Shown in pieces: positions 3,418-62,117 of a DNA stretch of 64,000 nucleotides. Below the pieces are notes generated by a model. The model had not been told where the DNA came from, searched no databases, and was given only the letters and a program-made list of their open reading frames with translations. Each line of letters begins with the position of its first letter. The stretch's first letter is position 1. This DNA comes from Scilla litardierei (Eukaryota > Streptophyta > Magnoliopsida > Asparagales > Asparagaceae): the NCBI GenBank assembly GCA_030789695.1, contig CM061140.1:80104422-80168421 (forward strand), read 5' to 3'. The position numbers and the translations under genes were made by a program.

Positions 3418-3778
3418 TGATCGCTCCGGGACGTAACCCAAAAGAATGGTTGTAGTTTTACCGCAAGTGCACGGTGTAGCAGCGAGCGGGTTATCGAACA
3501 CAGGGAGGACGAATGACCGTGCTTGTTCCGATCAACCTGGCTATTTAAGAAGAGAGAAATTTGCCTTTGGCGATCCTGTCACAATCGTCAAACAAAGTAC
3601 GGAAATATCAAATCAAATAAAGAACGTCTAGGGAGTGGGGAATTCCCGCTACTCACCGTACTTCGTAAAAGTAGTTCATTGGTATCAAAGTTGCTAGAAT
3701 AAGATTTTGGATGAACTAGTTGCAACTGAATGTAGAACCAAGCTCACGCTCTCGCGCTGTTGCTGGTCTATAGCTATC

Positions 3779-4080
3779 CTAGGCTCGGGTCCAACCTCTT
3801 GCAAACCCTAGCCTAGAGAAACTAGCATTAGGATCAACATCATCGTTCAATCGCGCACCGAGCCCAATCTCTTGCAAACTCGGCCCGCGACCTAGTTTGG
3901 GATAGTTCCTACCTGTCCAATCTCTTGCAAACAGGTATTGGCACGGAATTGGAACCGGAAACCCTAGTATCGGTCCAATCTCTTGCAAACCGATACTACG
4001 GAAATTCGACTCCAACCCAATTCAGATTTCTAGGGTTTCCTATCGAATTGGGATCCAATCTCTTGCAAATCCCAATCGAT
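3779..4080 (-). other. Five-hairpin array with constant 16-nt loop (3' LTR copy)
   Basis: Five copies of a near-constant 16-base loop (minus strand TTTGCAAGAGATTGGA). Each is flanked by a different short inverted repeat. Stems: 3779-3789/3806-3816 (10 of 11 paired), 3858-3862/3879-3883, 3910-3915/3932-3937, 3965-3973/3990-3998 (9 of 9), 4047-4053/4070-4076 plus 4 more pairs beyond a bulge. In the transcript this lies between the TATA box and the primer site. Confidence 0.8.
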
Positions 4081-4558
4081 GTGAATTCCTAGCCATCCGT
4101 AGTAAATTGATCCCAATCTAATCCCTAGTAGCAATTCTAGCAAAATTCCTACCAATTCATCACAATCATGAAATAGGGCTTGTAGGGTTCATCCCCACGC
4201 CCCAAGACGTGGCGACTACTCACAATTCATAGCAAGATCACAGAAATAATCAATGAAATAAGCAATAGAATTCATCACAATATTGAGATATGCAATAAAA
4301 ATAGAATTTTTAGAGAAGAGAAAAGCAAACCAATGGAGTTCTTCAATTAATCCAACAAAAATCCAACTTTGTCTCCTCTTCAATCACAAGAATAAAACTA
4401 AAAAGCTAATCTAAAAAGCTGCAAAAAATCTAAGAGAGAGGCTCCTCAAACTAGGGTAAAAACAGGGGTTAAATAGCCCCCAAAATCGTCCAAAAACTGT
4501 GACCAAAATACCCCTGCACAGCCTGTTTTCCGCAATTTTCGCTACAGGCAGCGCGTCG

Positions 4559-4939
4559 CACTCGGCCGAGTGACAAAAGTCGCTCGGCCGAGTGAAAACC
4601 CTGTAATTTTCCAGTAAGTCTCGATCTTCAGGGGTCTTCACTTCGGGGGCGGCTCGGCCGAGTGAGTTGTCGTCACTCGGCCGATGGCTTCATGGTACTC
4701 GGGCGGACGGGATTATCCACTCGGCCGAGTGGGTCTTCTGAAGCTCAGGCAGCCGAAAAACAGTAACTTGGAGATTTTTGAAGGGCTTCGTCTGGGCGCC
4801 ACTCGGGCGGACGGGGTCTCGTCACTCGGCCGATGTGGTCTCTGTCGCTCGGCCGAGTGCACATATAAATCGTGTCTGCTCTGGTCGGCCGAGCAGTGTC
4901 TCGCTGGTCGGCCGAGTGACTCCTTCACTCGGCCGAGTG
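4559..4939 (-). promoter_or_regulatory. CTCGGCCGAG palindrome array in 3' LTR of B
   Basis: About twelve irregularly spaced copies of CACTCGGCCGAGTG or partial versions, some changed to a CTCGGGCGGACG form, in about 380 bp. The array is upstream of the LTR TATA-like box on the minus strand. A matching array lies internally at 9828-10153. Confidence 0.8.
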
Positions 4940-5233
4940 GGACACAAAAAATGCCCGGATTGCTTATTTTGGCCTCCTCGTCGCTCCTGCGACGTCCGTT
5001 CTTCTTCCGCTCCTCTCCAACAGCAAAATACCCCTCGGGGAGGTCGTCGGTGACCGTCTGGAGTAAGCGCATCTCGAGATCACTCCAAATCGCGCCAAAT
5101 CACCTGAAATGCGACAAAAACAACAAATCGTGAAAAGCATCGCAATATTGTCGATATATCGTGAAAAACATGATTTGGGCGATCTAAATGGCATGCAAAC
5201 ATGCGGTAAATGGTGTAAAATAAGGAGTGATCA

Positions 5234-5248
5234 AAATCCCCCAAGCTT
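5234..5248 (-). other. Polypurine tract of element B
   Basis: On the minus strand AAGCTTGGGGGATTT directly precedes the 3' LTR. The same AGCTTGGGGGATTT abuts the 3' LTRs of elements C, D and H. Just upstream is a conserved CTTCCTCGAGGA palindrome. Confidence 0.85.
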
Positions 5249-7182: not shown

Positions 7183-9258
7183 CTAAGAAGGTGGTGCAGC
7201 GCCGTCTCCGTCCTGAGGCGGAAGTGGTGGTGGTGGCTGGACAGGCCGCTGAGCGGGTGTGGGTGTGGAAGTGGAAGCAGGCCTAGTGTGTGTGGAAGTG
7301 TGGGCGGGAACCTGCTGGGTGGGTGTGGGTACGCGGGGGAGACGCTCCAGGACCTGGGTAAGACAATAGTGAATCTGGGGGATCAGGTCAAAGCGGTCAG
7401 CCATCGCAGAGACGGTGGAGGACAGGGTCCTAAGGTCACCTCGGAGGCCACTCACCGCCACCTCTAGAGCACGAATGCTCTGAAGTACAGTGTCGGGGGG
7501 CGGTGGTGCAGAGGGACGCACCGGTCGGGGCTGTGCAGGGCGGGGCTGGCGTACTCGGGTCACGTATGTGACTGGCTTAGCGGGGAAGGGAACGAAAGGT
7601 GCTGCACTCGCAAATGTGGGCCTGGCCTCAGTGTGAGGCCAGGGCACCGGCTGGTGAGAAGTAGAGGCAGCAGCAGCGAAAGAAGAATATAAAAGAGGCA
7701 GCGAGGTGGCCGGAGAGGTCAGTGGCACAGAAGTGTGGACAGACGCCATGACGCTCTCGGAAAATACAGCAGCAGTGGAGACAGAGGGCTCTCCGCACTC
7801 AACTATGGTCGGCGGGCGCTCGGGTGGTACAAAAGAAACAGGCTCAGCAGACAGAGGGCCAGTGGGGGTGGTGACAGCCGTGGGGGTGGTGGAGGTGGGC
7901 TCAGCTAAGGTACTCCCGACACCGACAGAGGTGGGGACAGAGGTGTCAGGAGCAGCGGAAACATCAGGGATAGGCTGAGGGGCCACAGGGTCAACAGGGG
8001 CGGCAGGCTCGGCAGGGGCTACAGGGTCTGCGGGGGCAGCGTGGGCAGCGTGGGCCTGCTCGGCCTCCTCGGCCTCGAGCACGTAAGCAGCGGGGATGAG
8101 AACATCCATCGCAGGGAGCCAGTCAACGTGGGCCGGTGCAATCTGAGTCTGAGCTGGGCTCGGAAGAATCATGTAATCGGCACCGTAAGGGCCATGCAAC
8201 CAGACCTAGTGACGCTCACCGTGCGGACGAAGCATCTTCATCCGGGCCATAACATCGATCGAAAAAGAAGTGGGGCCCGGTACTTGTCGCAGGTCGTCAG
8301 GGAAGTCCTCGCCGGTCATAAGGGCAAGCAAGGTGATCAGGCCACCGCAGCATATCGGTGAGCGAGCGCCCACCGATACAATGATGCGGTCCAAAAACCA
8401 AGCCGCGACATCAATCACGACGGCGGGGACCAGCTCATCGCCATCCCTAGATAGAGCTCTGGGACGTGTCATCGTGTAGAGCATGTAGAGCTCCGGCGTA
8501 GACATCGTGCACGGCTCATATCTGGCCAAAAATGTCGTCGCCATAAGGCGCTGAGCAATGCGGAGGCAGGGATGGACAATGGCCGAGGCCTTGGCCCTAC
8601 TAGGGTCAAAGGCAGCGTGAAGACCCGTAATCCGGGCCCAGAAGGCACCGGCGTCGAAGGAATGTGGGGGGATATGGGTGGGGCCGTAACCGCGATCGGC
8701 TCCGGGGACAGCGGGCCATGAGAAGAATGCTCTCATCATATCGAGAGTGACCTGGCACTCCCGGTCCATGAACCGAAACGAGCATCCCTCATCGGTCCGG
8801 GCGATCGAACTCAGTACCTCAAGTGTCGGGCGGGTAAACGTGTCCGCCGACACCTGGAAGAAATCTCGCCAGCCCATGTTGTCGTACAACGTGAGCATCC
8901 CCTCTAGTACCCCCAGGCGTCCTAGGTCAGCGAGGTGTGCAAACCTGGAGGGTACGATCGAGCGCTGGGAGATACGCTCGAAGACGGCGCGGTGTGCGTC
9001 GTCTCGGAATGTAATCCCGAGCGGCCTGACCAGTGGAGCCGGAGGTGGTGGCTGTGGGGCGGCAGGGAGTGGCTGTGCGGGCTGTGCGGGCGCTGCAGGC
9101 TGTGCGGGGTGTGCGGGGCCTGCAGGCTGTGCTGGGTGGATGGGGTGTGTAGGAGAATGTGGAGGAGAGTCCTCCAACTCGTGGGAGGGGCCGGCATCAT
9201 CCGACCGCTTCCGCTTGGTGGAAGCTCTCTTCGACCGAGGCCGTGTCCGGGGCGGCAT
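7183..9258 (-). pseudogene. Athila-type ORF1 (element B), one in-frame stop
   Basis: This is the frame downstream of gag-pro, homologous to the ATHILA ORF-1 family by pattern and position. Its biochemical role is unknown. I start it at the ATG at 9256-9258, where a very basic NLS-like tail begins (MPPRTRPRSKRASTKRKR); an upstream in-frame start near 9330 is possible. A proline/alanine-rich linker follows, then a globular region with an ICCGGLITLL motif that is also present in element H's ORF1, and a proline-rich C-terminus. A TAG at 8206-8208 splits the frame after about 350 residues, and the rest is open to 7183. I see no signal peptide or membrane segment, so I do not call it an envelope protein. 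Confidence 0.75.
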
Positions 9259-9810
9259 ATCGGCCCCGAGCGCGCGCCGAAAAGTGTAAAAAGTGCGGCG
9301 TGTGCAAAAGAATGGAAGGAGTATACCCAAACTCGCCGCGAGTGCAAGATAATGGAAGCGTGCGAAGTCAGCGCCTCCGCGAAGCCTAAATCAGTCCGTA
9401 GAAGCTCCCCGGGGCTCCCCTAAGCTCCAAAAAACAACCTGCGCATGAAATGGCGATATCAGCGGGTAATATTCAAAATGTATGGGGCATTAGGGGTATA
9501 ATAGATAGATATAGGAATTGATTAGGGTTTGGGGGTCGTTTAACACATGGATCCTCTAAAAATACACAAAAAGAGGAGAAATAGGGCGAAATAGGCGATA
9601 CCGGAGATGATCGGAGCGACGGCCGCCGGCGACGACTCGGGCGAGTCACGGCGGGTGGTCGGCCGGCGGTGGCTGGCCGAGCGACGGCGCGAGGTGGCCG
9701 GTCGGGCGAGTGGGGGCTGTGTGCGAGGCGAGCGGGCGAGGGGAGCTGAGGGGTCGCACGGTTTGGGAATTTTTTTTCGTTTCGAAAATTGTGCCGCCCC
9801 GCAGCCCCTC

Positions 9811-9820
9811 ATATAATAAA
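9811..9820 (-). promoter_or_regulatory. TATA-like box upstream of ORF1 (B, internal)
   Basis: Minus-strand TTTATTATAT lies about 8 bp past the end of the internal palindrome array and about 550 bp before the ORF1 ATG. It matches the position of clearer TATAAATA boxes in elements D and H, but is less canonical. Confidence 0.45.
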
Positions 9821-9827
9821 AGTTACG

Positions 9828-10153
9828 ACTCGGCCGAGTGACTATGTCACTCGGCCGAGTGGGATCAATGGAAAATCCTCCCCGCTTACGCTTCGGCCGA
9901 GTGGCTTTGCCAGCCTCGGCCGAGTGGAGTAAGTCCATTCGGCCGAGTGGCTCAAGCTACTCGGTAAGACTCGCCCTAGGAGCGTATCCGTTTTACTCGG
10001 TCGAGTGAAAATATATACTCGGCCGAGTAGCAGTTATACTGAAATCAAGGAAATAAATAGAGAGTTGGGTACAGCAGACTTCCCTCGTTCGTGAGCGGCT
10101 CGGCCGGACGAACTTGTGTACTCGGCCGAGTGACTAGTATACTCGGCCGAGTG
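9828..10153 (-). promoter_or_regulatory. Internal CTCGGCCGAG palindrome array before ORF1 (B)
   Basis: About eleven units of ACTCGGCCGAGTG or close variants in 330 bp between the gag-pro end and ORF1. The core is the same as in this element's LTR array. It is followed on the minus strand by a TATA-like box, then ORF1. Confidence 0.8.
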
Positions 10154-10419
10154 AGCCTTGTGTTCTGCTGTTTGTCTTCGTTTGGGCTCTAAACTCCGTC
10201 TTTCTTCCTCCAGTCGATTTCATCTTACTCCTAAGCATCGAGCGTCTTCCTGGGGCGCTCCTCGTCGTCTCGTTCATCCTCCTCATGATGGATTTACCTA
10301 TCTCCTCTCCTGTCAAGAAAAATAGGACCCGTTATCACAAAATTTTTGGGCGAACGACTCAAAACACTAAAAATTTCTAAAACAAAAATAAAGAAAAAGT
10401 AAAAATAAAGCAATAACCA

Positions 10420-13399: not shown

Positions 13400-13766
13400 A
13401 AAACTTGATCGCTCCGGGACGTAACCCAAAAGAACGGTTGTAGTTTTACCGCAAGTGCACGGTGTAGCAGCGAGCGAGTTATCGAACACAGGGAGGACGA
13501 ATGACCATGCTTGTTCCGATCAACCTGGCTATTTAAGAAGAGAGAAATTTGCCTTTGGCGATCCTGTCATAATCGTCAGACAATGTACGGAAATATCAAA
13601 TCAAATAAAGAACGTCTAGGGAGTGGGGAATTCCCGCTACTCACCGTATTTCGTAAAAGTAGTTCATTGGTATCAAAGTTGCTAGAATAAGATTTTGGAT
13701 GAACTAGTTGCAACTGAATGTAGAACCAAGCTCACGCTCTCGCGCTGTAGCCGGTCTATAGCTATC

Positions 13767-14068
13767 CTAGGCTCGGGTCCAACCTCTTGCAAACCCTAGC
13801 CTAGAGAAACTAGCATTAGGATCAACATCATCGTTCAATCGCGCACCGAGCCCAATCTCTTGCAAACTCGGCCCGCGACCTAGTTTGGGATAGTTCCTAC
13901 CCGTCCAATCTCTTGCAAACGGGTATTGGCGTGGAATTGGAACCGGAAACCCTAGTATCAGTCCAATCTCTTGCAAACCGATACTACGGAAATTCGACTC
14001 CAACCCAATTCGGATTTCTAGGGTTTCCTATCGAATTAGGATCCAATCTCTTGCAAATCCCAATCGAT
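13767..14068 (-). other. Five-hairpin array with constant loop (5' LTR copy)
   Basis: Same five hairpins as 3779-4080. Changes in the stems between the two LTRs keep pairing. Hairpin 3 has ACCCG/CGGGT here and ACCTG/CAGGT in the other LTR. In hairpins 4 and 5 a single change turns a G-C pair into a G-U pair on the minus (transcribed) strand. It would lie in the RNA leader upstream of the primer site. Confidence 0.8.
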
Positions 14069-14456
14069 GTGAATTCCTAGCCATCTGTAGTAAATTGATC
14101 CCAATCTAATCCCTAGTAGCAATTCTAGCAAAATTCCTACCAATTCATCACAATCATGAAATAGGGCTTGTAGGGTTCATCCCCACGCCCCAAGACGTGG
14201 CGACTACTCACAATTCATAGCAAGATCACAGAAATAATCAATGAAATAAGCAATAGAATTCATCACAATATTGAGATATGCAATAAAAATAGAATTTTTA
14301 GAGAAGAGAAAAGCAAACCAATGGAGTTCTTCAATTAATCCAACAAAAATCCAACTTTGTCTCCTCTTCAATCACAAGAATAAAACTAAAAAGCTAATCT
14401 AAAAAGCTGCAAAAAATCTAAGAGAGAGGCTCCTCAAACTAGGGTAAAAACAGGGG

Positions 14457-14463
14457 TTAAATA
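14457..14463 (-). promoter_or_regulatory. TATA-like box of 5' LTR (B)
   Basis: Minus strand GGGGGCTATTTAACCCC, about 85 bp past the palindrome array. The same box in C reads GGTATTTAGCCCC. Assigned by position; the transcription start is not known. Confidence 0.45.
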
Positions 14464-14546
14464 GCCCCCAAAATCGTCCAAAAACTGTGACCAAAATACC
14501 CCTGCACAGCCTGTTTTCCGCAATTTTCGCTACAGGCAGCGCGTCG

Positions 14547-14927
14547 CACTCGGCCGAGTGACAAAAGTCGCTCGGCCGAGTGAAAACCCTGTAATTTTCC
14601 AGTAAGTCTCGATCTTCAGGGGTCTTCACTTCGGGGGCGGCTCGGCCGAGTGAGTTGTCGTCACTCGGCCGATGGCTTCATGGTACTCGGGCGGACGGGA
14701 TTATCCACTCGGCCGAGTGGGTCTTCTGAAGCTCAGGCAGCCGAAAAACAGTAACTTGGAGATTTTTGAAGGGCTTCGTCTGGGCGCCACTCGGGCGGAC
14801 GGGGTCTCGTCACTCGGCCGATGTGGTCTCTGTCGCTCGGCCGAGTGCACATATAAATCGTGTCTGCTCTGGTCGGCCGAGCAGTGTCTCGCTGGTCGGC
14901 CGAGTGACTCCTTCACTCGGCCGAGTG
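14547..14927 (-). promoter_or_regulatory. CTCGGCCGAG palindrome array in 5' LTR of B
   Basis: Copy of the array at 4559-4939, about twelve units. It sits in U3 upstream of the TATA-like box. Confidence 0.8.
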
Positions 14928-15222
14928 GGACACAAAAAATGCCCAGATTGCTTATTTTGGCCTCCTCGTCGCTCCTGTGACGTCTGTTCTTCTTCCGCTC
15001 CTCTCCAACAGCAAAATACCCCTCGGGGAGGTCGTCGGTGACCGTCTGGAGTAAGCGCATCTCGAGATCACTCCAAATCGCGCCAAATCACCTGAAATGC
15101 GACAAAAACAACAAATCGTGAAAAGCATCGCAATATCGTCGATATATCGTGAAAAACATGATTTGGGCGATCTAAATGGCATGCAAACATGCGGTAAAAT
15201 GGTGTAAAATAAGGAGTGATCA

Positions 15223-15227
15223 ATGGC
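15223..15227 (+). repeat. Target-site duplication of element B, right copy (ATGGC)
   Basis: Directly follows GTGATCA at the LTR end and matches 3413-3417. Confidence 0.9.
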
Positions 15228-23371: not shown

Positions 23372-23619
23372 TGACGTGCGTTTATATTTCATATATTCAC
23401 GCACATCTTCTTTTGTGTTTTTCCGCTATTTTCCACCGTCTTGTATTTGTTTTCTCGTGTTTTCTTGTTTTCTTTCACTTTTCCGTGTTTTTGTATGTTT
23501 GCAGGAGTTTGCAGGCGTAGGGGACATAAAACGACGATATCATGATTCCCCGGAGCAACGGGAGGAGTCACGCATGATCCAGGGGGCCAAACGACGAAGA
23601 TCGCCATCTTTCAGCCCCC

Positions 23620-24049
23620 ACCCGATCGGTTGGATAGGCCAACTGATCGGGTGATGCACGCGTGCACGACCCGGTCAGTCGCTGAAGCAACGAAAGTGTC
23701 AACCGACCGGGTCACCGACCGGTTCAACCCGACCTCTCTCTGGAAATTGGAGCTGAAACTCAACCGATCGGGTGATCTTCACCCGATCGGTTCACCTGTA
23801 GCCGTTTCCCCGAAGAAGATGACCCGGAGAGCTCACCCGACGGCCGGCTGACCGTGTCAAAACTTTCGAAGTCTCTGTCTTTTTGGGCAACAATTCCAAC
23901 CGATCGGGTGATCTTTCAACCGATCGGTTCACCCGACGACGCTCAAGATCCAAACAACGAGCAACTTCCGCCAATCGGCCGTGTCACTTGACCGGGTGAA
24001 ATTTTGAAGATTGCTGCCGAAGTTCGCAGCAGGTCACCCGATCGGGTGA
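23620..24049 (+). promoter_or_regulatory. CCGATCGG palindrome array in 5' LTR of D
   Basis: About ten units built on CCGATCGG, such as ACCCGATCGGTT, CAACCGATCGGGTGA, and a perfect 16-bp palindrome TCACCCGATCGGGTGA at 24034-24049, some with an ACCGGGT variant. The array ends 10 bp before the TATA box. Confidence 0.8.
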
Positions 24050-24059
24050 TGTCGTTTTC

Positions 24060-24068
24060 TATATATAG
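24060..24068 (+). promoter_or_regulatory. TATA box of D 5' LTR
   Basis: TATATATAG about 10 bp past the last palindrome. The same arrangement is at 31849-31857 in the other LTR. Confidence 0.65.
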
Positions 24069-25026
24069 AAACCTAGGTTTCCAAAAAACGAGAGTTGTTA
24101 TTTTTTGCTGTTTTTTCTCTCTCTTGACGGCTGTAATTTTCTAGATATTTGTAAGTCGTCTGATCTTTACCAAACTTTAATATAGTGTTATTTGCATTAC
24201 TCTTACTGGTTTTCAATCGTCTGATCATGTTTTTAACGGTCGATTTTGATTTAGATTGCTTTTTAGTAAATATGTGTGAGTAGTTCCCAAATCTGGGATT
24301 TTGGTGGAAACCCCTTCATGGGGTCTCCTCGATGCGTCCATAGGACTAGGAAATCGATATGGATTAGGAATCTATCGGTTACGCTGGGTGTTTTATTGTC
24401 ATCGGCGGAAAAAGACCGCCTTTGACCGTTGGGCCAAGGGGGAATAAACTTGGCGGTTGACTCCCTAGCCATAGCTCACGCCCTTAGCGTAGACATCGAA
24501 TCCTAGCGCGCAGGAGCGGCAGGATGAGATGTTGGGAGTTATCGTTGCGAGCATAGTGCTCCCAGAGTCGGTCAGTGTTAATGGACATGGGAATGCCCAC
24601 TGATCGAACCCAGGTAGTCCGGCGTATCATCCTGGGCACCGACCGGAATATCGGGCCCATGGGACGCTGGTATCACTCTTAGAGGCAACGTCTCACCATT
24701 AGCCCCTAATTCCAATCGTTATCCTACATGTAGGTCGTATCGGCAAGAATCACACGATAGGGTGGAAACCGAAGTCCCGGGTTTTCCCTTTATATTGTTT
24801 ATCCCTCGCATTCTATTTTCTGTGAAACCCATCTACCGATTCGGGCTAGCTCGCCCATGGGGTGAATTTGGTCCTTCTTGACACAAGCACAACCACGCCT
24901 CCCTGAGTTCGACCCCCATGCCACACTACAACACCATGCGCTTGCGGTTATAAATGTTTAAATCTCACGTCCCCAATCATATATTGCACACATCTGACAT
25001 GCAAAGCGAGGGGACGTCAAGCTTTA

Positions 25027-25038: not shown

Positions 25039-25222
25039 TAGGGAGGCAATGTGCTTGTTATTCTAGGATCTCATGAACCCTTGAGTCTAGCTCTCATCTC
25101 TATCTCACGATAATTTTCGCATTCTTCTTTTTTCGTTTTTATTTTTCTTATTTTTGTTATATATTTTATTATTTTATCTGCATCCTTCCCACTTTTTGCT
25201 TCACGGGTGTTTGTTGCTTTTA

Positions 25223-26083
25223 ATGCGCAGGAACACAAGAAGTCTTGACGACTTGATTCCTGTTGACCCTGAGATAAACGACGCCCTAAGGTGTCTTGCC
25301 GCAGAGAAGCGAAGAAGAGAAGGGCCTGAAACCATGGGGGAGAACACCCCACCGCCAAAGTCCCTGTTGGAGTACTCGATGCCATCCCTCGAGTCCACCT
25401 CTGCCATCCATCCTCCTGCTATTACGGTGCAAAGCTTCAAGCTTAAGCCGTCTTTGGTGACGTGGATCCAGCAGGATCAATTCTCGGGTGCACCCATGGA
25501 GAGCCCCATCGAACATTTGGACTCCTTCTTGGAGAAATGTGACACCTTCCGGATAAACGGTGTCACAACTGAGGCGATCCATCTGAAGCTATTCCCCTTC
25601 TCTCTGCGAGATAAGTCCAAGCTGTGGCTTAGGGGGAAGGACCCAAATACGTTCAACACTTGGGAGAAGCTTTCTAACGCTTTTCTGACAAAGTTCTTTC
25701 CTCCGGGGAAGACCATGAAGCTGAGGAGTGAGATCTCCTCCTTCTCTCAAGCCAGCCACGAGTCCATGCATGAGGCTTGGACAAGGTTTAAAGAGATGCA
25801 GCGAAGATGCCCTCATCACGAGCTTCCCAAGTGGCAGATAATTAATCTGTTCTACAACGGATTGAGGGATGACTTGAAATCTTCCATGGACGCTGCGGCT
25901 GGAGGGTCCTTCATGTCCAGGAGTGAAGAAGATGTCGGACAAATTCTAGAAAATATGGCATCAAACAATGAGCGGTGGTGTGATGAGAGAGCCACACCTA
26001 GATCTGGGGGTATCCACAGGGTCGAGGACGTCAACAAATATCCAGCAAGTTTGACTTGCTGTCGACCAAGATCTCCGCACTGA
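25223..26083 (+). pseudogene. gag: Gag, N-terminal part (element D)
   Basis: I place the start at the ATG at 25223 (MRRNTRSLDDLIPVDPEIND); the frame is open further upstream but that part is AT-rich leader. It has the plant gag pattern: LFPFSLRDKSKLWL, then WEKLSNAFLTKFFPP and WTRFKEMQRRCPHHE, then the ENMASNN region also found in B. A frameshift near 26040 moves the protein to the next frame. It encodes the particle protein. Confidence 0.85.
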
Positions 26084-26594: not shown

Positions 26595-27800
26595 GTGGCG
26601 AACCTTTCAAGGTCGCAAAACTTATTGCCGCCACAACCGGAGGTGAACCCGAGGGGAGCAAACCAAACTTTGGCACTCACACACGAGCATGCGAATGTGT
26701 CCGCTATCGTGTTGAGGAGCGGGGCGCAAATCCCCATAAGAGTGCACAGAAAGGAACCAGAAGAACCATTGGTCATGGAGCGACCGATTGAAAAATTGAA
26801 TGACGCAGGTGCTTCGTCGCCAAAGCCAACAACTCCGGAGGGAGTTCCTGATGAGGAAAAGAAGAAAAACGAGGAAGAGAGCCTCAAGGTATTCAAGCCC
26901 ATTGTGCCTTTTCCACAACAGCTAGCCCAAGCCAAGATAGACAAGAAGTATGGCAAATTCTTCGCCATGGTCAAGGATCTAAGCTTGCAAATCCCCTTCC
27001 TCGAAGCTATCGAGAAAATTCCCTCCTACGCTAAATTTCTAAAGGATTTAGTGACAAGAGGGTCCAGAAAGGAGAAGGTCGTATTGACGACGGAATGCAG
27101 CGCTCTCATTCAGAGAGCAAATTCGCCTAAGCTTAAAGACCCGGGGATTTTCTCTATCCCTTGTGAGATCGGGGAGGTAAAGATCCATCGTGCGCTCGTC
27201 GATCTTGGAGCGAGTGTCAGTTTGATGCCCATGTCGCTGTATAAGAGGATAGGGATGGGTGACTTGGAGCCCACCAGAATGACCCTACAGCTTGCAGACC
27301 GATCGGTCAAATATCCGGTGGGGGTTGTAGATGACCTCCCTGTCAACGTAAGTGGGGTGCATGTGCCAGTGGACTTCATTGACATGGACATGCCTGAAGA
27401 TGCACACACCCCCATCATTCTTGGACGGCCTTTTATGGCCACTGCCGGCGTTTTGATAGATGTGAAGAATGGGAAGCTTTCCCTTAACGTCGACAACGAG
27501 AAAGTCGAATTTGACTTGGGGTTGTCAATGAAGCACCCCGATCCCCCGGATGATCCAAGATGAAATGTGCTGGAGTTAAAAGAAGAGAGAGCTGTGGAGG
27601 CAAGCTCCTGTGAAATTCTTTCAAGGAATCCCCCCGATAGCTTGGGGGACTCAGAAGAACCAGTCGGCCCGAAGAAGAATGATGTTGCTGGGATAGCGGA
27701 TGCGGCACATACGGTCCCCCCAGATTTCAGAAAGCTCCTCCGACGAGGAGAAAAGGGAAAGAGCCCATGGGGCTCACCGGTGACGAGATCCGAATCCTGA
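26595..27800 (+). pseudogene. pro: Gag C-terminus and aspartic protease (element D)
   Basis: The third frame of the same polyprotein. A conserved VPFPQQLAQAKIDK block lies near 26905. The protease motif ALVDLGASVSLMP is near 27190, with ILGRPFMATAGV near 27420. An in-frame TGA at 27561-27563 interrupts it, and the reading continues to 27800 and then, after another shift, to about 27964. No RT follows. AGCTTGGGGGAC at 27638-27650 resembles the element's polypurine tract. Confidence 0.82.
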
Positions 27801-28010: not shown

Positions 28011-28028
28011 CATGGGAGGCAACCCATG
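28011..28028 (+). other. AGGCAA-loop hairpin after gag-pro (D)
   Basis: CATGGG-AGGCAA-CCCATG, a perfect 6-bp stem, preceded by GACGTTAAACAAAAGCGCTT. It is the counterpart of 10420-10435 in B and 60663-60680 in H. Confidence 0.8.
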
Positions 28029-28160
28029 CTCTAAACTTTTATCTTCATTTTTAGGATTTTTATTACCTTTATTTTTTCTATTTTAATAATTAAATTCAGC
28101 CGCGAGATCATCAGTCGAGAAACTTAGGCCATTCGTGAATTTTTGCAGGAAACAAGCCCT

Positions 28161-28507
28161 CACCCGATCAGGTGGTTATTCAACCGATCGGGTGAGACGT
28201 ATCAGACGATGGCCGTATATGCTCTCCTTGCGAACCGGTCAGGTGAAGCTAAACGTGATCGGGTGGCAGACCGTGTGAGCTGAGTAGAAGTCTCGGGAAT
28301 TTTTGGAAATGATCAACCGATCAGGTGATGCAAAGTATGGTCGTGTGACAGACCGGGTGAGCTGTACTAAACTTTCGGGAAAATTTTTGAAACGTCGAAC
28401 CGATCGGTTGAGTTCTCAACCGATCGGCTCGCCTGTAGCCGCTTTTCGGCAAATTTTTCGACCTAAAAGTCAACCGATCGGGTGACATTTCACCTGACCG
28501 GTTCGAC
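28161..28507 (+). promoter_or_regulatory. Internal CCGATCGG palindrome array (D)
   Basis: About ten full or partial units (CAACCGATCGGGTGA, ACCGATCGGTTGA, ACCTGACCGGTT and others) between gag-pro and the ORF1-position gene. It has the same core as this element's LTR array and ends 8 bp before a TATA box. Confidence 0.8.
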
Positions 28508-28515
28508 TTAAACCC

Positions 28516-28523
28516 TATAAATA
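28516..28523 (+). promoter_or_regulatory. Internal TATA box before ORF1-position gene (D)
   Basis: CCTATAAATAACC just after the palindrome array and 423 bp before the ATG at 28946. The sequence between is C-rich and leader-like, as after the LTR TATA boxes. Confidence 0.6.
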
Positions 28524-28945: not shown

Positions 28946-29356
28946 ATGCCTCCACGCCATGCTAGACCCGCCAACGCTGGCACGTCCAACCCTAAGCCTA
29001 CCCGTCGCACTCGTCGCACACGATCCCCCACCCGAGCCACCACCACCACCAATTCATCCACCGCCGCCGCCCCACGCCCCTCTGACACCATTTACATAGG
29101 CGACATCGAATACCAGATGACATTCTATGACGATGACCATGCTGACCGGTTCATGGCCATGCTCCTCCTAGCAGGAGTTGGTGGTGAGGCGACTCAGCAG
29201 TCAGTCGAGCGTGACCTACCCGTCCTTCAAAGCCTCATGCGTCACATTCGTACTGACTCGCCTGATGGTTTCGAACCTGACATCCCACACCCCACCACTC
29301 CTGGTCCACAGCACAGGGCCCCATCACCACCCCCAGAGGGTGGTTCCTCTGCTTGA
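28946..29356 (+). CDS. Short ORF in ORF1 position, function unknown (element D)
   Basis: A 136-residue ORF starting MPPRHARP, like the MPPRTRP start of B's ORF1. A basic Arg/Thr/Pro tail follows (RRTRRTRSPTR), then a small acidic part (IYIGDIEYQMTFYDDDHADRF) and a Pro-rich end. It lacks the globular region with the ICCGG motif found in B and H, so it is either a strongly shortened ORF1 or a different protein that kept the same start. The uninterrupted frame downstream of a palindrome array and TATA box supports expression, but I cannot assign a function. Confidence 0.5.
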   Translation: MPPRHARPANAGTSNPKPTRRTRRTRSPTRATTTTNSSTAAAPRPSDTIYIGDIEYQMTFYDDDHADRFMAMLLLAGVGGEATQQSVERDLPVLQSLMRHIRTDSPDGFEPDIPHPTTPGPQHRAPSPPPEGGSSA

Positions 29357-31135: not shown

Positions 31136-32995
31136 TGACGTGCGTTTATATTTCATATATTCACGCACGTCTTCTTTTGTGTTTTTCCACAATTTTCCGC
31201 CGTCTTGTATTTGTTTTCTCGTGTTTTCTTGTTTTCTTTCACTTTTCCGTTTTTTTGTACGTTTGCAGGAGTTTGCAGGCGTAGGGGACATAAAACAATG
31301 ATATCATGATTCCCCGGAGCAACGGGAGGAGTCACGCATGATCCAGGGGGCCAAACGACGAAGATCGCCATCTTTTAGCCCCCACCCGATCGGTTGGATA
31401 GGCCAACCGATCAGGTGATGCACGCGTGCATGACCCGATCAGCCGCTGAAGCAACGAAAGTGTCAACCGACCGGGTCGCCGACCGGTACAACCCGACCTC
31501 TCTCTCTCTGGAAATTGGAGCTGAAACTCAACCGATCGGGTGATCTTCACCCGATCGATTCACCTGTAGCCGTTTCCCCGAAGAAGATGACCCAGAGAGC
31601 TCACCCGACGGCCGGCTGACCGTGCCAAAACTTCTGAAGTCTCTGTCTTTTTGGGCAACAATTCCAACCGATCGGGTGATCTTTCAACCGATCGGTTCAC
31701 CCGACGACGCTCAAGATCCAAACGACGAGCAGCTTCCGCCAACCGGCCGTGTCACTTGACCGAGTGAAATTTTGAAGATTGCTACCGAAGTTCGCAGCAG
31801 GTCACCCGATCGGGTGATTCTTCACCCGATCGGGTGATGTTGTTTTCTATATATAGAAACCTAGGTATCCAGAAAACGAGAGTTGTTATTTTTTGCTGTT
31901 TTTTCTCTCTCTTGACGGTTGTAATTTTCTAGATATTTGTAAGTTGTCTGATCTTTACCCAATATTAATATAGTGGTATTTGCATTGCTCTTACTGCTTT
32001 TCAATCGCTTGATCATGTTTTTAACGGTCGATTTTGATTTAGATTGATTTTTAGTAAATATGTGTGAGTAGTTCCCAAATCTGGGATTTTGGTGGAAACC
32101 CCTTCGTGGGTTCTCCCCGATGCGTCCATAGGACTAGGAAATCGATAGGGATTAGGAATCTATCGGTTACAGCTCACGCGCTTAGCGTAGTCGAATCCTA
32201 CCGCGCGGGAGCGGCAGGATGAGACGTTGGGAGTTATCGTTGCGAGCTTAGTACTCCCGGAGTCGGTCAGTGTTAATGGACATAGGAATGCCCACTGACC
32301 GAACCCGAGAAGTCCGGCATATCATCCTGGGCACCGACCAGAATATCGGGCCCATAGTAAATATGTGTTTTATTGTCATCGGCGGGAAAAAGACCGCCTT
32401 TGACCGTTGGGCTAAGGGGGAATAAACTTGGCGATTGACTCCCGAGCCATAGCTCACGCGCTTAGCGTAGTCGAATCCTAGCGCGCGGGAGCGGCAGGAT
32501 GAGACGTTGGGAGTTATCGTTGCGAGCTTAGTGCTCCCGGAGTCGGTCAGTGTTAATGGACATAGGAATGCCCACTGACCGAACCCGAGAAGTCCGACAT
32601 ATCATCCTGGGCACCGACCGGAATATCGGGCCCATAGGATGCTGGTATCACTCTTAGAGGCAACGTCTCACCATTAGACCCTAATTCTGATCGTTATCCT
32701 ACCCGTAGGCCGTATCAGCGAGAATCGCACGATAGGGTGGAAACCGAAGTCCCGGGTTTTCCCTTTATATTGTTTATCCCTCGCATTCTATTTTCTGTGA
32801 CAACCCATCTACCGATTCGGGCTAGCTCGCCCATGGGGTGAATTTGGTCCTTCTTGACATAAGCACAACCATGCCTCCCTGAGTTCGACCCCCAAGCCAC
32901 ACTACAACACCGTGCGCTTGCGGTTATAAATATTTAAATCTCACGCCTCCAATCATATATTGCACACATCTGACACGCAAAACGAGGGGACGTCA
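31136..32995 (+). repeat. 3' LTR of element D, with internal duplication
   Basis: 1860 bp. It contains everything in the 5' LTR plus one extra 20-bp palindrome unit near 31818-31837 and a 192-bp duplicated segment at 32171-32362. 1648 + 20 + 192 accounts for the full length. Confidence 0.88.
32171..32362 (+). repeat. 192-bp duplication within 3' LTR of D
   Basis: AGCTCACGCGCTTAGCGTAG through GGGCCCATAG occurs here and again from 32451. The 5' LTR has one copy. The two copies are nearly identical. Confidence 0.85.
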
Positions 32996-33000
32996 GCTGC
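32996..33000 (+). repeat. Target-site duplication of element D, right copy (GCTGC)
   Basis: Matches 23367-23371. Confidence 0.9.
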
Positions 33001-37960: not shown

Positions 37961-37961
37961 T

Positions 37962-37973
37962 TGGTATCAGAGC
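37962..37973 (+). other. Primer binding site, initiator tRNA-Met
   Basis: TGGTATCAGAGC starts one base after the LTR. This is the classic copia primer site. Confidence 0.93.
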
Positions 37974-39638: not shown

Positions 39639-39860
39639 ATGTCTACCGCTTCTAAGAACATTGTCGCAGAGCTTAACAAAGGTGAAAAGCTCAACGGCGA
39701 CAATTATAAACTTTGGTCAATAAAAATCCAATATGTTTTGGAAGAGCAAGATGTGCTTGAAACACTCCAAAACATAATGGAAGAACCTGAGTTGGGCAAT
39801 ACGGCCCAACACAAGAGGGACCGAGAAGCTTATGAGACTTGGACTCGAAGAACAAAATAG
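39639..39860 (+). pseudogene. gag: Copia gag, N-terminal part
   Basis: Starts at the ATG at 39639 (MSTASKNIVAELNKGEKL) with the copia gag pattern LNGDNYKLWSIKIQYVLEEQ. A frameshift near 39842 ends this frame with a TAG at 39858-39860, and gag continues in the next frame. Gag forms the particle. Confidence 0.85.
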
Positions 39861-44752: not shown

Positions 44753-44763
44753 TGAGTGGGAGA
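44753..44763 (+). other. Polypurine tract of copia element
   Basis: TGAGTGGGAGA directly precedes the TGTTGG LTR start. Confidence 0.8.
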
Positions 44764-54111: not shown

Positions 54112-56223
54112 TGCATAGTGCACACACTTTGCTTCATCTTGAAACACACTTCAAAATTTCCATATGAACCATGTCCACTTCTATATTTATGTCTCATATG
54201 CTTCATTTTCTATGAAATATCGTGGATTTATTTTTTTATGAACTCTGATATATGTTAGATTAGGTTTGATTCCTTGATTAGTGTATCTTTGTTAATATAC
54301 TTTTTCATAGTAGAATCCATAGTTTCACAACCATATTCTCGAAACAGTTGAGCTAAAAATGAATGAATCAAATCTGAAAATCATTTGACTCCTGCGTGAT
54401 TTGATTGATAATTCTATTGCTTCGTGAATGTCTAGTGATTCATAAGAGATAGGATAACCCCATGAGAACCAAAGTAGTGATGATTAGGATTCCTGAAACC
54501 GAGCCATGTCTAAATTCTATGCTTTTTCTTTTTCTTTTATGAATAGCCAATAAATGATCTTTGATCATGTTTTGCATTCCATCGCGTTTACGTGAGTTTG
54601 AAAAAATCCCAAAAATGCAAAAATCAAACAAATATCCTGAATAAAAGGCCCTAGGGGTTCTTCGTAACCCAATGCTCTAGGACCGTCTGGTCTGGGATGC
54701 ACAGGCCGCTTTTTGTATATATTGAGTTATCTCGTGTATATAAAGAAAGAAAAATGCATATGAAATATTCATATAGCCAAAAACAATATAAAACTACAAA
54801 AATCTCATATCCTTATCTCCATTTCTATATAGAACTAAGACATGGCAAAGTTGATGGGTTCTAAGCGTCTTGAAATGGTCGTAGTGTGGTGATGCCTTAC
54901 CTTGATTGAATTTGCTAAATTCATTCCATGAAGTATAACAAAATCCATGCATGCTTGAATACTTTTGATCACGACATATTATACTGCTTAGAGAATGAGT
55001 TTTGGACATTGGTTTCATTTCTGTGAACTTAGTATATTGCATGATAAACTATGATATGATATAACTCTACTCTCATTTTATCACTTATCAAGTTCATTAC
55101 TTTTATTGAAATCCACGTTATTTTAATTTGAGCGAGATTTAAGTATTTGGTGTGTATATGTGTTCTAATTTCATATTGACGTGTGTTCACGAGATCTTGC
55201 ATACCTTTAGTTCGTATATTTTCTGAATTTAAGATCAAACCCCTTATCTCCATTACACGCCACCGCCTCGCATCTTGACGTTGCCCTCGGTTTGCTAGCC
55301 GCAAATGGCCGGGGGACCCGCGTGAGGGTTTAGATATTTGTAACCGCAAGCGCACGGTGTTGTAGTGTGGCTTGGGGGTCGAACACAGGGAGGCTAGGAT
55401 GTGCTTGTGTCAAGGAGGACCGAAATCACCCCGTGGGCGAGCTAGCCCGAATCGGTTGATGGGTTGTCACGGGAAAGGAATGCAAGGTATGAACAATAAG
55501 AAAATAAACCCGGGACTTTGGTTTCCACTCCAACGAGCGACTCTCGTCGATACGGCCTACGGGTAGGATGGCGATCGGAATTAGGGTCTAATGGTGAGAC
55601 GTTGCCTCTGAAAGTGGTACCGGCATCCCATGGGCCCGATATTCCGGTCGGTGCCCAGGATGATACACCGGACTTCCCGGGTTCGATCAGTGGGCACTCC
55701 CGTGTCCATTAACACTGATCGATTCCGGGAGCACTAAGCTCGCAACGATAACTCCCAACGTCTCATCCTGCCGCTCCCGCGCGCTAGGATTCGGTGTCTA
55801 CGCTAAGGGCGTGAGCTATGGCTAGGGAGTCAACCGCCAAGTTTATTCCCCCTTGGCCCAACGGTCAAAGGCGGTCTTTTTCCCGCCGATGACAATAAAA
55901 CACCCCGCGTAACCGTTAGATTCCTAATCCCTATCGATTTCCTAACCCTATGGATGCATCGGGAAGAACCCCCGAAGGGGTTTCCGCCAAAATCCCAGAT
56001 TTGGGAACTACTCACAAATATTCATTAAAAAGTGATCTAAACGAAAATGAACCGTTAAAATCATAATCAGACGATAGGAATGCGAAGGTAGTAGAGAAAT
56101 TAAGATAATACTAAAGTTTAAGAAAGATCCGAAAACTTACAATAGAAAAGTAATTACAGCCGTCACAAATAGGAGAAAACAGTAAAAACTAACAGCTCCC
56201 CGTTTCTGGAACCCTAGGGGTCC

Positions 56224-56231
56224 TATTTATA
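56224..56231 (-). promoter_or_regulatory. TATA box of H LTR
   Basis: Minus strand CCTATAAATAGG, about 10 bp after the palindrome array. Confidence 0.65.
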
Positions 56232-56240
56232 GGATCTCAT

Positions 56241-56610
56241 ATCACCCGATCGGTTGACAAGTCAACCGATCAGGTGATCCGTTACAAATAATAAACAGAA
56301 AACGGCGGACTTTCACCCGGTCATATGAACCGGTCGGTTGAGTTCTTGGAGTGACCGGTTGGATCTTGGCGCCATCGGGTGAAGGGATCGGTTGGGTGCC
56401 CGTGTCTCGGCTCCTCAGCATCAGCTACAGATGAACCGATCGGGTGAGAGTCACCCGATCGGTTGGAATTTGGCTTGAAAAGACAGAGAATCAGCCCCGT
56501 TGAACCGGCCTGTGAACCGGTCGGGTGACTTCCACTTGAGCTCCGGCTGAGACCGGGTGGTGCACGTGTGCATCACCCGATCGGTTGGAGATGACCAACC
56601 GACCGGGTGA
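56241..56610 (-). promoter_or_regulatory. CCGATCGG palindrome array in LTR of H
   Basis: About ten units, such as TCACCCGATCGGTTGA, CAACCGATCAGGTGA and ACCGACCGGGTGA. Same core and position as in D. Confidence 0.8.
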
Positions 56611-56855
56611 GGGGCTGAAAGATGTAATCTTCGTCGTTTGACCCCCTGGATCACGCGTGACTCCTCCCGTTGCTCCAGGGACTTGAGATATCGTCGTTAA
56701 ACGTCCCCTACGCGGGCAATCTCCTGCAAACATGGAGAAACAAAGAAAAGTGAAAGAAAACGAGAAAATACGAGAAAACGAATAAAAGACGGCGGAAAAT
56801 ACGGAGAAACACGAAAGGAAACGTGCGTGAATATATGAAATATATACGCACGTCA

Positions 56856-58494: not shown

Positions 58495-59719
58495 TCAATC
58501 GGATTCGCTGGTACTAGAATGGTAGGGGGAGAGAGAGGAGGGTGGGGAATAGTGAATGAAAGAATCCTCAGAGGAAGAGGAGGGCGTGCCTATGGGGGAA
58601 GGAGGGGCGACAGGCTGGAGCACGGGTGGATCGATGTGCACCGGGGGGCTGTGATGGAGAAAGATCGTACCAGGTGGGCCGACAGTCGGGTGCCAATCGG
58701 GAGGATCCAAGGGTGGTAGATGCACTAATGGAGAGTACCAAGGATCGGGGTAAAACTCCCAAGGCAGATGAGATGGGGGGTAGGGTAGGCGCAAAGGGGC
58801 TAAAGGTGGCAGGATCGCGAAAGGTGCGCAGGCGGGGCCATAGAGGTAGACAGCACGGTCTTCACCGAAGGGAGTGAGCATATTGATATCGATCAAGTAA
58901 TCGCGATCAATACGGCTACGTCCAGGCAAAATAGGGAGGTCGGGTGGCACTCTCAAAACACAGCTGACAATAAGGGTGATCATCCCACCACAACAGATGG
59001 ATCCAGAATTGGCGCGGCTAACAGCAAAAATTTCGTAGATGATCCAATGAGCGGTGTTTATGGGCATGGGGATGTGCCCAAGGATCCTGTCATCGGACAT
59101 GGCATAGAGAAAGAAGAGCTCATCCCTAGATACAGTGGACACATCCACGCGGGCGAAAACAGTGTTGGCGAGGATGCAACGGGTGAGGCGGTAACACGGG
59201 TGAATAATGTAGGAGGCAAGAGCCTCGGGTGGAAAGGTGGTGTACCGGGTAAATCGTTGCCAAACACCATCAGCCCGAAATTGAGAGTAGATGTCAGTTC
59301 GATCGTGGGTGGAATGTTCAGTATTAAGATCGGGGTGACGGAGATTGAGGATATTGTTCAACTCGATGAAACCCAGAGAAAAATCGCAGTTGAAAGCGCG
59401 GAAGGAGAAACCCCCATCAAACACCTCGAGGGAACTGAGGAATTCAAGCGTGAGATTTATGTGTGTGAGCATGGATGTAAGAGAGGGTATGGCACCCGAT
59501 ACAGTTGAAAATTCTGGCGACGTCGTTCGAAAGCCCTAGAGCTTCGAGTGTGGGGCGATCGGTGAAGAGTGTAGGTCTCATCGGGCGATGAAGTAGTGCT
59601 CGCAAACGGTCAGACTGTTCTTCCGTAGAAGGGTTTATGCCAAGGAAAGAGGGGGGAAAGGGGCCGTGGAGCGGATCACGACGCGAAGATGATGCAGTCT
59701 CTTTCCCTTTCTTAGACAT
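58495..59719 (-). pseudogene. Athila-type ORF1 (element H), one frameshift
   Basis: I start it at the ATG at 59717-59719 (MSKKGKETASSSRRDP, basic). The frame changes near 59475, and 59472-58495 carries the rest: a globular region with an ICCGGMITLI motif matching ICCGGLITLL in B's ORF1, and related blocks (HPCYRLTRCI against HPCLRIAQRL; ELFFLYAM against ELYMLYTM). The long C-terminus is Pro/His/Ser-rich. Function unknown; ATHILA ORF-1 family by pattern. No membrane segment or signal peptide seen. It lies about 450 bp downstream of the internal TATA box. Confidence 0.75.
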
Positions 59720-60165: not shown

Positions 60166-60173
60166 TATTTATA
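60166..60173 (-). promoter_or_regulatory. Internal TATA box before ORF1 (H)
   Basis: Minus strand CCCCTATAAATACCCC, about 10 bp after the internal palindrome array. Confidence 0.6.
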
Positions 60174-60182
60174 GGGGCGAAA

Positions 60183-60530
60183 CTGAACCGATCAGGTGAG
60201 TTCTCACCCGATCGGGTAGGCAAATTTCGAAAGTTTCCTGTTGGCCAACAACTACAGGTGAACCGACCGGGTGAATAGTCACCCGATCGGTTGACCGTTT
60301 TCCAAATCTTTCCCGAGAATTGGGGGTTTCTCACCCGGTCTCTTCAACCGATCGCGCTCTAACTCAACCGATCGGTTGATATTTCCAAAAAATTTCCCGA
60401 GAATTCTCCCCAAATCACCTGGTCTGTCACCCGGTCTCTCCATTCTTCACCTGATCGGTTCATTTGGGGACAGATGCGGCTTGTATCTGATACATCCCAA
60501 CCGATCGGTTGAGTTATCAACCGATCGGTT
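60183..60530 (-). promoter_or_regulatory. Internal CCGATCGG palindrome array (H)
   Basis: About ten units (TCACCCGATCGGGTAG, CAACCGATCGGTTGA and others) between pol and ORF1, same core as the LTR array at 56241-56610. Confidence 0.8.
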
Positions 60531-60662
60531 GGGGCCTTGTTTCCTGCAAAAACCAACAGATTGTCTAAGTCCCTGAACGGATGTACTTGTGGCTGATTTT
60601 ATTTATAAAAATAGATAAAATAAAGTCAAAAATAACACTAAAAATGGTGCAAAAGTTTAGAG

Positions 60663-60725: not shown

Positions 60726-62117
60726 TCAATTAGGATCCGGAGGGTTAGAGGAAGAGTTGTCGCTCGTTGGGGATCCGACCGGAGAGAATTCTGGTTCTCC
60801 AACAGCATAGTGTTTCAGACGCTGTCCGTTGACTTTAAACGGCTCATCCCTTCCCATTATCTCAATAGCCCCATGCGGGAAAACCTTGGTGACGCGGAAC
60901 GGTCCCGACCACCTTGACTTGAGTTTTCTAGGAAAGAGCTTCAGCTTTGAGTTGAATAGGAGAACTAAGTCCCCTTCTTTGAATTCCCTCTTCAAGATTC
61001 GCTTATCGTGCCACCGCTTCAGCTTCTCCTTGTAGATCTTGGCGTTCTCATAGGCATTGAGCCGGATTTCGTCGAGCTCGTTGAGTTATAACTGCCGGTG
61101 CACTCCTACCTTCTTGGTGTCGAAGTTCAGATTCTTAACTGCCCAAAATGCCTTATGCTCCAATTCCACAGGAAGATGGCAAGCTTTCCTATAGACAAGC
61201 CGGTAGGGAGTTGTGCCGATAAGAGTTTTAAATGCTGTCCTGTAGGCCCAAAGCGCGTCAGGAAGCTTTGATGACCAGTCCTTTCTAGAATTGGCCACCG
61301 TCTTTTCTAGTATGCTTTTAATCTCCCGGTTAGAGACTTCCGCCTAACCGCTGGTCTGCGGGTGGTAGGCACGCCCCACCCGGTGTTGTACCCCGTATTT
61401 TTTTAAGAGGGCCTCGAATTTCTTCTCTATAAAGTGGCTCCATCCGTCACTGATCAGGACACGAGGTACACCGAACCGCGGGAAGATGTTGCTTTTGAAG
61501 AACTTGGCCACCACTCTGGAATCATTGGTTGGACTGGCCATCGCTTCAACCCATTTCGACACGTAGTCCACAGCCACCAAGATATACTGGTTCCCCGAGG
61601 AGGAAGGGAACGGTCCCATGAAGTCCACTCCCAATACATCGAAGATTTCTACCTCCAGGATGTAGTGTTGAGGCATCTCATTCCTTTTGGAGATATTCCC
61701 AGCTCTTTGGCATTTATCGCAGGCTTGGACATAAACATGTGTGTCCTTGAAGAGAGTAGGCCAGTAGAATCCGCTTTGGAGAATTTTTGCGGTGGTCTTG
61801 TAGGTGCTCGCGTGCCCTCCACATTGCTGCCCATGGCAGTGGGAAATGATGGAGGTCGCATCAGTTTCAGGGATGCATCTTCGTATCACCCCATCATTGC
61901 AGGTTTTGTATAGGTCGGGGTCATCCCAATAAAATTTGCAGACCTCATGGAAAAATTTCTTCTTCTGCTGAAAGCTCACATTGTGGGGGACGATGGCACA
62001 AGCCAGATAATTTGCGATGTCGGCGTACCAGGGGGTCCAGGAGGAAGAGACAGAGAAGAGATGCTCGTCAGGGAGTGAATCATCGATCGGCGTAGCATTT
62101 AAATCGAGGGTAGGCAT
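60726..62117 (-). pseudogene. pol: Integrase (element H)
   Basis: Zinc domain near 61870-61690 ([10 protein letters not shown] region and CDKCQRAG). The core has its first Asp in [17 protein letters not shown] near 61615 and its second in LISDGWSHF near 61455. The Glu region (AEVSNREI) follows an in-frame TAG at 61346-61344 near the HPQTSG block. A TAA at 61088-61086 interrupts again. The GPF module (SRWSGPFRV) is near 60905. Stop at 60728-60726. Both internal stops fall at likely Gln positions. Confidence 0.87.

Follow-up and report, generated by a model that had tools for sequence, protein, structure and literature searches.

The palindrome array at 28161..28515 in element D, one of several Athila-type elements (A, B, D, and E, with A seen as an LTR) within the 64-kb window (the whole stretch of DNA analysed), probably serves the gene at the ORF1 position as a second, internal promoter; the prediction is that one family-specific DNA-binding protein, most likely the family's own ORF1 product, binds this array as well as the LTR promoter. 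This reading is given roughly even odds (probability about 0.5). The same family-specific array was present at the LTR and at the internal site, and its distance to TATA was nearly fixed in the best-studied family; therefore, one element-specific protein likely controls both promoters, and its effect would be activation or anti-silencing.

Element D, lying on the forward strand, contained 5' LTR at 23372..25023 (ends approximate), gag at 25154..26083 (PF03732, E 1.6e-22), an aspartic protease ORF at 26595..27563 (Pfam match), the GGGAGGCAAC marker at 28014..28023 (B and E also have it, past their coding regions), the internal array, a 136-aa ORF at the ORF1 position at 28946..29356 (N-terminus basic, no Pfam match), and 3' LTR at 31136..32998. 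The two LTRs were recognized by self-comparison (91–94% identity in three pieces), which also revealed a 187-bp direct repeat at 32171–32637 (97.9% identity) in the 3' LTR, present as a single copy in the 5' LTR. Each of the three sites carried an array upstream of a TATA box: (i) six exact CCGATCGG cores at 23620..24049 in the 5' LTR, with TATATATA at 24060..24067, 14 bp past the final core; (ii) four exact CCGATCGG cores plus degenerate ones in the internal array, the final core being the degenerate CTGACCGG at 28494–28501, with TATAAATA of the predicted internal promoter at 28516..28523, 14 bp further on; and (iii) an array at 31386–31833 in the 3' LTR, with a core-to-TATA distance of 14 bp. 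The interval from the protease end to the internal array was about 600 bp, insufficient for RT plus integrase; among the listed ORFs of D, Pfam matches were confined to gag and protease, and RT, integrase, and a recognizable ORF1 were absent. By its homology to E at both LTR and internal site, D is a non-autonomous relative.

Element E, lying on the reverse strand, contained RT at 62593..63942 (RVT_1, E 9.2e-30), integrase downstream of it at 61344..62117 (rve and H2C2, Pfam), an internal array of five exact cores at 60174..60560 with the same layout as in D, TATAAATA at 60166..60173 (14 bp past a final one-mismatch core), the main piece of ORF1 at 58495..59472 (PF03078, E 1.1e-4, 21.6 bits with the cut-off at 20.2; an upstream piece was in a different frame), and 3' LTR at 55320..56855 (ends approximate), whose array at 56246–56584 was followed by TATAAATA at 56231–56224 with a gap of 14 bp. 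The gene order of E, RT then integrase (RVT_1 and rve, both on the reverse strand), was that of Ty3/gypsy elements and not the integrase-before-RT order of Sireviruses (Ty1/copia). The ATHILA ORF-1 domain (PF03078), which the Athila lineage is expected to carry in a sense gene between pol and the 3' LTR, scored above cut-off in B, E, F-type locus L018, and E-type locus L040.

Element B, also on the reverse strand, harbored two LTRs at 3418..5234 and 13406..15223 (98.8% identical), the former with a TCGGCCGA array at 4562–4936 followed by TATTTAAC 86 bp past the final core and without a 14-bp TATA, the latter with the identical array type and again an 86-bp gap. Its internal array at 9817..10180 had eight exact TCGGCCGA cores followed by TATATGAG 14 bp past the final one, and downstream of it lay the first piece of ORF1 at 8206..9330 (PF03078, E 5.7e-9), continued in frame after a stop at 7183–8199. 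B also encoded gag-protease (Pfam, window ORFs), within which a plant snoRNA match (snoR71, Rfam, 45.5 bits, cut-off 40) was found in antisense at 12618–12724 (+); together with the Athila elements, this match suggests that the genome is that of a plant. The window further contained a piece of another retrotransposon at 304–2396 (+; RT_RNaseH, integrase zinc domain, and SH3_Tf2-1 matches) and a Ty1/copia element at 37355–45367 (gag, integrase, and RVT_2; LTRs of about 606 bp, 98.5% identical), inside which a dense repeat of GGCCGGCC and GCCATGGC was located at 38457–38833. Pyrimidine-rich stretches ending in TTTGCAG or TTGACAG and resembling a 3' splice site occurred shortly upstream of the internal arrays of D (28140–28148, +), E (60552–60544, −), and B (about 10324–10310, −) and of the D 5' LTR array (about 23497–23504, +).

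The core sequence followed the element. In the window, CCGATCGG occurred 27 times (0.67 expected from shuffles), with 25 copies in five arrays (D 5' LTR, 6; D internal, 4; D 3' LTR, 6; E LTR, 4; and E internal, 5) and two stray ones at 27299 and 41352, while all 35 copies of TCGGCCGA fell within the arrays of B (two LTRs and one internal) or of the A LTR. The D and E arrays each had four to six CCGATCGG and no TCGGCCGA, those of A and B seven to ten TCGGCCGA and no CCGATCGG, and the two cores co-occurred in none of the 26 stretches counted; single CTCGRYCGAG sites were present in four TCGGCCGA arrays (A LTR, B internal, L082, and L084). As a bare 8-mer, TATAAATA was not rare (8 in the window, 2.28 expected). 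These counts confirmed the original prediction that the D internal array uses the core of the D LTRs (CCGATCGG), not that of B (TCGGCCGA), and precedes TATAAATA at 28516; E repeated this pattern, and B used TCGGCCGA at both LTR and internal site. Across the whole 3.68-Gb assembly, to which all genome-wide scans were applied, mixed CCGATCGG/TCGGCCGA pairs within 5–35 bp numbered 403 (23 with the pattern backwards) against 77,788 CCGATCGG pairs (1,334 backwards), the rarity of mixing being judged against the CCGATCGG pairs only. That cores agree between LTR and internal site of an element and differ between families, likewise predicted, held in all three core groups readable at both sites (D/E, B, and the L088/L091 group described below); as independent cases, three are few. 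The internal arrays of D, E, and F aligned end to end and share a common ancestor, so that their copies are not independent tests and the independent core groups number three.

Further Athila groups were sampled through the GCGCTTNNNGGGAGGCAACC form of the pol-end marker, which had 22,576 genome matches (0 backwards) and none in a scan of IMG/VR. The 821 bp downstream was read at 20 GCGCTTNNNGGGAGGCAACC sites, picked among the matches listed to span the NNN classes: (i) CAT/GAT sites had CCGATCGG (3/3); (ii) GTC/GTT sites had TCGGCCGA (6/6; TATA gaps of 14, 14, 15, 14, 11, and 13 bp); and (iii) eight ATT sites plus one ATC site had CTCGACCGAG/CTCGGTCGAG sites, in many cases decayed (only two near-matches each were left in L070 and L075), and no 14-bp TATA was seen in the 821-bp stretches of the ATT group. 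Another ATC site (L077) had no array in its 821 bp. A further 4.5 kb downstream was read for four of the 20 stretches, and this led to an LTR in one (L091), to a nested element in another (L089), and to nothing in the remaining two (L090, following L078, and L092, following L074), which had no array of the expected core in their 4.5 kb, the LTR possibly lying outside the stretch or being interrupted. L091, downstream of internal array L088, contained a polypurine tract followed by an LTR with both motifs of that internal array (CTCGRYCGAG, 4 copies internally and 7 in the LTR; CTCGGNCCGAG, 3 and 4), and this third Athila group (the ATT group, CTCGRYCGAG) thus likewise matched LTR to internal site. 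A fourth matching family with CAGTCGACTG was considered and dropped: the "internal" array of L076 (ATC) was nearly identical to the array of L089 and for that reason belongs, on the simplest view, to the LTR of a nested element. This nested element (L076; L089 2200–2600) had an LTR with CAGTCGMCTG palindromes, a further core, and the host element's own CTCGACCGAG array resumed at L089 4003–4273.

The distance from array to TATA was nearly fixed in the CCGATCGG group. With the gap counted from where the last 8-bp core ends up to the first T of the TATA box, it was 14 bp in the LTRs of D (both) and E and in the internal arrays of E and B; in the D internal array the last exact core (28474) was 34 bp from TATA, and the site at 14 bp was the degenerate CTGACCGG. 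The A and B LTRs were exceptions, with 87 and 86 bp, respectively, to TATTTA. The gap of about 10 bp originally proposed for both places of D stands if a 16-bp unit is counted (TCACCCGATCGGGTGA, 10 bp, and TATA in the D 5' LTR); from the 8-bp core it becomes 14 bp in the D LTRs, and in the D internal array 14 bp is reached only from the degenerate core. E-type loci had the array in 29 of 30 cases, with a 14-bp gap to TATAAATA in 27, and F-type loci had it in 30 of 30, with TATAAATA at 15 bp in ten and TATATAAA near there in 16 of the 20 others.

Genome-wide, CCGATCGG-N(1-30)-TATAWA had 34,110 matches, overlapping ones included (4,540 with the pattern backwards). Gaps of 1–30 bp were allowed, and the 86 distinct sites among the matches listed clustered at 14 bp (71) and 15 bp (10), with five elsewhere (12, 13, 18, 18, and 19 bp); 81 of the 86 thus lay at 14–15 bp. 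The matches listed included 14 LTR–internal–LTR triads on one strand and within 13 kb, whose sites, classed as LTR or internal by spacer sequence, differed in spacer letters and kept a spacer length of 14–15 bp. The corresponding TCGGCCGA-N(1-30)-TATAWA scan gave 36,823 matches (2,746 backwards), and the 83 distinct sites among the matches listed comprised 34 at 11–16 bp (19 at 14 bp), one at 21 bp, and 48 at 1, 5, or 7 bp; where the sequence was in hand, these shortest gaps reflected TATATA between two palindromes inside an internal array. Such a TATATA was observed in the B-type internal array at about 10009–10019 (−), roughly 200 bp upstream of the 14-bp TATA, and likewise near +426 in L079, L082, L083, and L087.

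Whether arrays are also common at non-promoter sites, an outcome held to speak against the original prediction, received a divided answer. Cores outside the promoter segment amounted to 0 of 181 in 30 ORF1-centred F loci and 7 of 183 in 29 E loci (the array-less L058 left out), but a strict core–TATA site within 450 bp was kept by only 27 of the 52 CCGATCGG arrays among the matches listed, and the test was therefore passed only in part. Among the 25 arrays lacking the strict site, L006 had a final core with one base changed before TATATATA, and L001 had no TATA there.

The protein that would read these arrays may be encoded by the element or by the host, and the properties of ORF1 bear on this choice. 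Among the matches listed genome-wide, open ORF1 frames commonly ran to 679 codons in F, 438 in E, and about 735 in B, and dN/dS was 0.153 in F (20 of 30 loci) and 0.295 in E (17 of 30 loci), values biased downward because both locus sets were chosen for open frames. Of 10,489 first-look candidates for the 136-aa ORF of D, 150 were scored, and in most of these the ORF was matched along its whole length, at 71–92% identity besides itself; 106 of these 150 copies (itself included) had no internal stop, as did 87 of the 115 at 80% identity or less, in a list favouring good matches. Comparison with one old relative (L008) gave dN 0.164 and dS 0.275 for 97 codons, no more than a weak sign. Basic N-terminal runs were present in F (RKRRK), B (KRKR), and D (RRTRR) and weaker in E (KKGK); none of these four proteins had a hydrophobic N-terminal start, and the top 19-residue hydrophobicity of 1.85 (E) and 1.91 (B) was borderline for a membrane segment. 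Pfam recognized no DNA-binding domain in ORF1, its matches being ATHILA ORF-1 and, below cut-off, Transposase_32. A protein database search with B ORF1 had no match at E 0.001; a PDB profile search with the ORF1 alignment hit a single entry at a whole-sequence E of 0.00082 with 0 stretches passing (profile positions 32–94), which was not used, and a fold model of the aligned B and E window pieces of ORF1 (mean pLDDT 36.7) was discarded.

Identity between ORF1 proteins was 35% for E/F (same core), 36% for E/B, and 31% for F/B (different cores); because ORF1 divergence does not track the core, this main contrary result speaks against ORF1 as the array-binding factor. It agrees with a scheme in which host transcription or silencing factors read the arrays, the families having adopted different ones and the match between LTR and internal site arising from shared tissue timing. 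The missing DNA-binding domain points the same way, as does D, which keeps its arrays without a full ORF1, and the repeated motifs of Sireviruses matched mainly stress-related plant factor sites in PLACE in the published account (PMC2829016). Host reading is nevertheless considered unlikely: several cores per genome (three in Athila plus CAGTCGACTG in the nested LTR) would require a separate factor for each family, and a shared factor would be expected to permit mixing, while two of the cores hardly ever mix.

The palindromes were organized in pairs. Neighbouring CCGATCGG copies 18–23 bp apart were exactly 20 bp apart in 53 of 57 distinct pair sequences, and the TATA-proximal pair began near −42 and −22 in the 3' LTR of D, in the LTR of E, and in the internal arrays of D, E, and F, and at −43 and −22 in the B internal array, the D 5' LTR having no −42 site. 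The inner flanking bases were complementary to their mirror partner in 75% of the 57 distinct CCGATCGG pairs (shuffles, 50%; reached by 0 of 2000), a count that is not a probability because related copies are not independent. The two flanks of a single palindrome were uncoupled (40% vs 39% and 35% vs 43%), the outer arms covaried weakly (79% vs 72%, reached by 96 of 2000 shuffles), and between E and F one and the same pair carried changes on both sides. The 25 TCGGCCGA pairs displayed no inner coupling (72% vs 75%), the base there barely varying. Core columns were slightly more conserved than in-array spacers within F (0.956–0.965 vs 0.935–0.954) and more clearly so within E (0.973–0.975 vs 0.926–0.933).

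The inner-arm coupling fits a symmetric complex on two adjacent sites, and it is equally expected from a stem, as would be formed if the paired palindromes were hairpins in RNA or single-stranded DNA (small-RNA precursors or reverse transcription) and not protein sites. Five pairs folded as RNA (four of D and one of B internal) indeed gave stem-loops of −19.4 to −29.6 kcal/mol with z of −3.3 to −7.5. A hairpin function is nevertheless judged improbable, given the weak covariation of the outer arms and the absence of an evident RNA use for the shared distance to TATA, and an array upstream of TATA would fall outside the internal transcript. The 14-bp TATA distance is common to LTR and internal site despite differing spacers, and action at the DNA level is therefore favoured.

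The relation between LTR and internal arrays was further examined with the cores plus 4 bp on each side masked, against 200 shuffles keeping single-base content only. The masked LTR-versus-internal score was reached by 33 of 200 shuffles for D and by 20 of 200 for E, and B had one 36-column match between LTR and internal array (31 vs at most 30 in all 200 shuffles). Scores above all 200 shuffles were obtained for D-internal/B-internal, E-internal/B-internal, D-LTR/B-LTR, and D/E at both sites, the same-site matches of B with D/E sitting upstream of the array in the GGGAGGCAAC marker and T-rich stretches. The core thus follows the element and the flank follows the position, and detectable copying does not explain the shared core in D and E. 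That the internal array arose by copying from the LTR, through template switching (which short palindromes could promote) or recombination, so that the cores would match with no shared factor, is very improbable, for the D and E comparisons stayed at the shuffled level, with each site resembling the same site of another family, and the B match beyond the cores is near background because cross-family LTR–internal comparisons were themselves reached by only 2 to 19 of 200 shuffles.

Under the preferred reading of one element-specific protein at both promoters, the unit would be a mirror-image palindrome pair about 20 bp (two helical turns) apart with its last core 14 bp before TATA, and a symmetric protein complex on the pair would adjoin the TATA-binding machinery. 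With a single protein on both promoters, the core could change only if both arrays changed, and the core would therefore follow the element. D, having no pol and a short ORF, would borrow the protein of E- or F-type relatives that have its core. Two further points count against this mechanism: the A and B LTRs have no 14-bp TATA, and D keeps its array though its own ORF has no match to the ORF1 domain.

The nearest known design is that of the Sirevirus repeated motifs (RMs), palindromes with one consensus per element that cluster ahead of TATA in the LTR and recur ahead of the ENV-like gene; the four ENV-less elements are described as having no internal RM copies, and the authors, who took this in favour of an internal promoter, could not conclusively identify one (PMC2829016). 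Sireviruses are Ty1/copia elements (PMC2829016), whereas the elements here are Ty3/gypsy Athila with an internal TATA at 14 bp, mirrored pairs 20 bp apart, and several codes per genome; the design works like that of the RMs, yet the elements are not Sirevirus members. The Sirevirus design was thus known, and new here are its occurrence in Ty3/gypsy, the internal TATA, the fixed spacing, the mirrored pairs, and the several codes in one genome. No description of the twin-array arrangement in Athila was found in the literature searched, most subscription-journal papers lying outside its reach.

VANDAL elements are DNA transposons. The nearest mechanism is that of their VANC proteins, element-encoded proteins recognizing short motifs that are dense in the non-coding regions of their own family (PMC5735166, PMC10398659). 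Arrays of the VANC21 motif YAGTATTAY keep to one orientation, and binding is demonstrated there (PMC5735166, PMC10398659), whereas it is a prediction here; the motif arrays and family specificity that VANC-type anti-silencing would need are present here. Tas, a single accessory protein of foamy virus, binds both the LTR and the internal promoter of its own element (PMC4929722); this is an animal virus, and the parallel with Athila, where transactivation is predicted, is an analogy with no homology claimed. The maize element Grande carries an extra gene, gene23, between pol and 3' LTR with its own promoter and a nuclear product; gene23 is antisense, unlike the sense ORF1 of Athila, and the passages concerning it mention no palindrome array (PMC7264820, PMC11963269). 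In Arabidopsis, Athila elements that carry gag and an ORF at the env position but no pol propagate, and D looks similar; the words promoter, TATA, and palindrome are absent from the main text of that report (PMC2410132).

The function of the sense ORF between pol and 3' LTR in Athila and Sireviruses has been called controversial (PMC7264820, PMC2829016). Two retrotransposon superfamilies place a copy of the LTR palindromes before that ORF, and regulation rather than entry is therefore indicated. A broader proposal, put forward tentatively and at somewhat below even odds, is that the "envelope-like" ORF1 of Athila is not an envelope but a transcription or anti-silencing factor, specific to its family, whose code each element carries in duplicate, once in the LTR and once at ORF1's own internal promoter, and that co-resident families diverge by changing the code, as Sireviruses seemingly did separately. 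The three core groups in one genome provide ready-made tests, in which the ORF1 of one family can be set against another family's core. Binding by ORF1 would make it the counterpart of VANC among retrotransposons, and this would help explain the separate codes among families with tens of thousands of core–TATA matches per genome.
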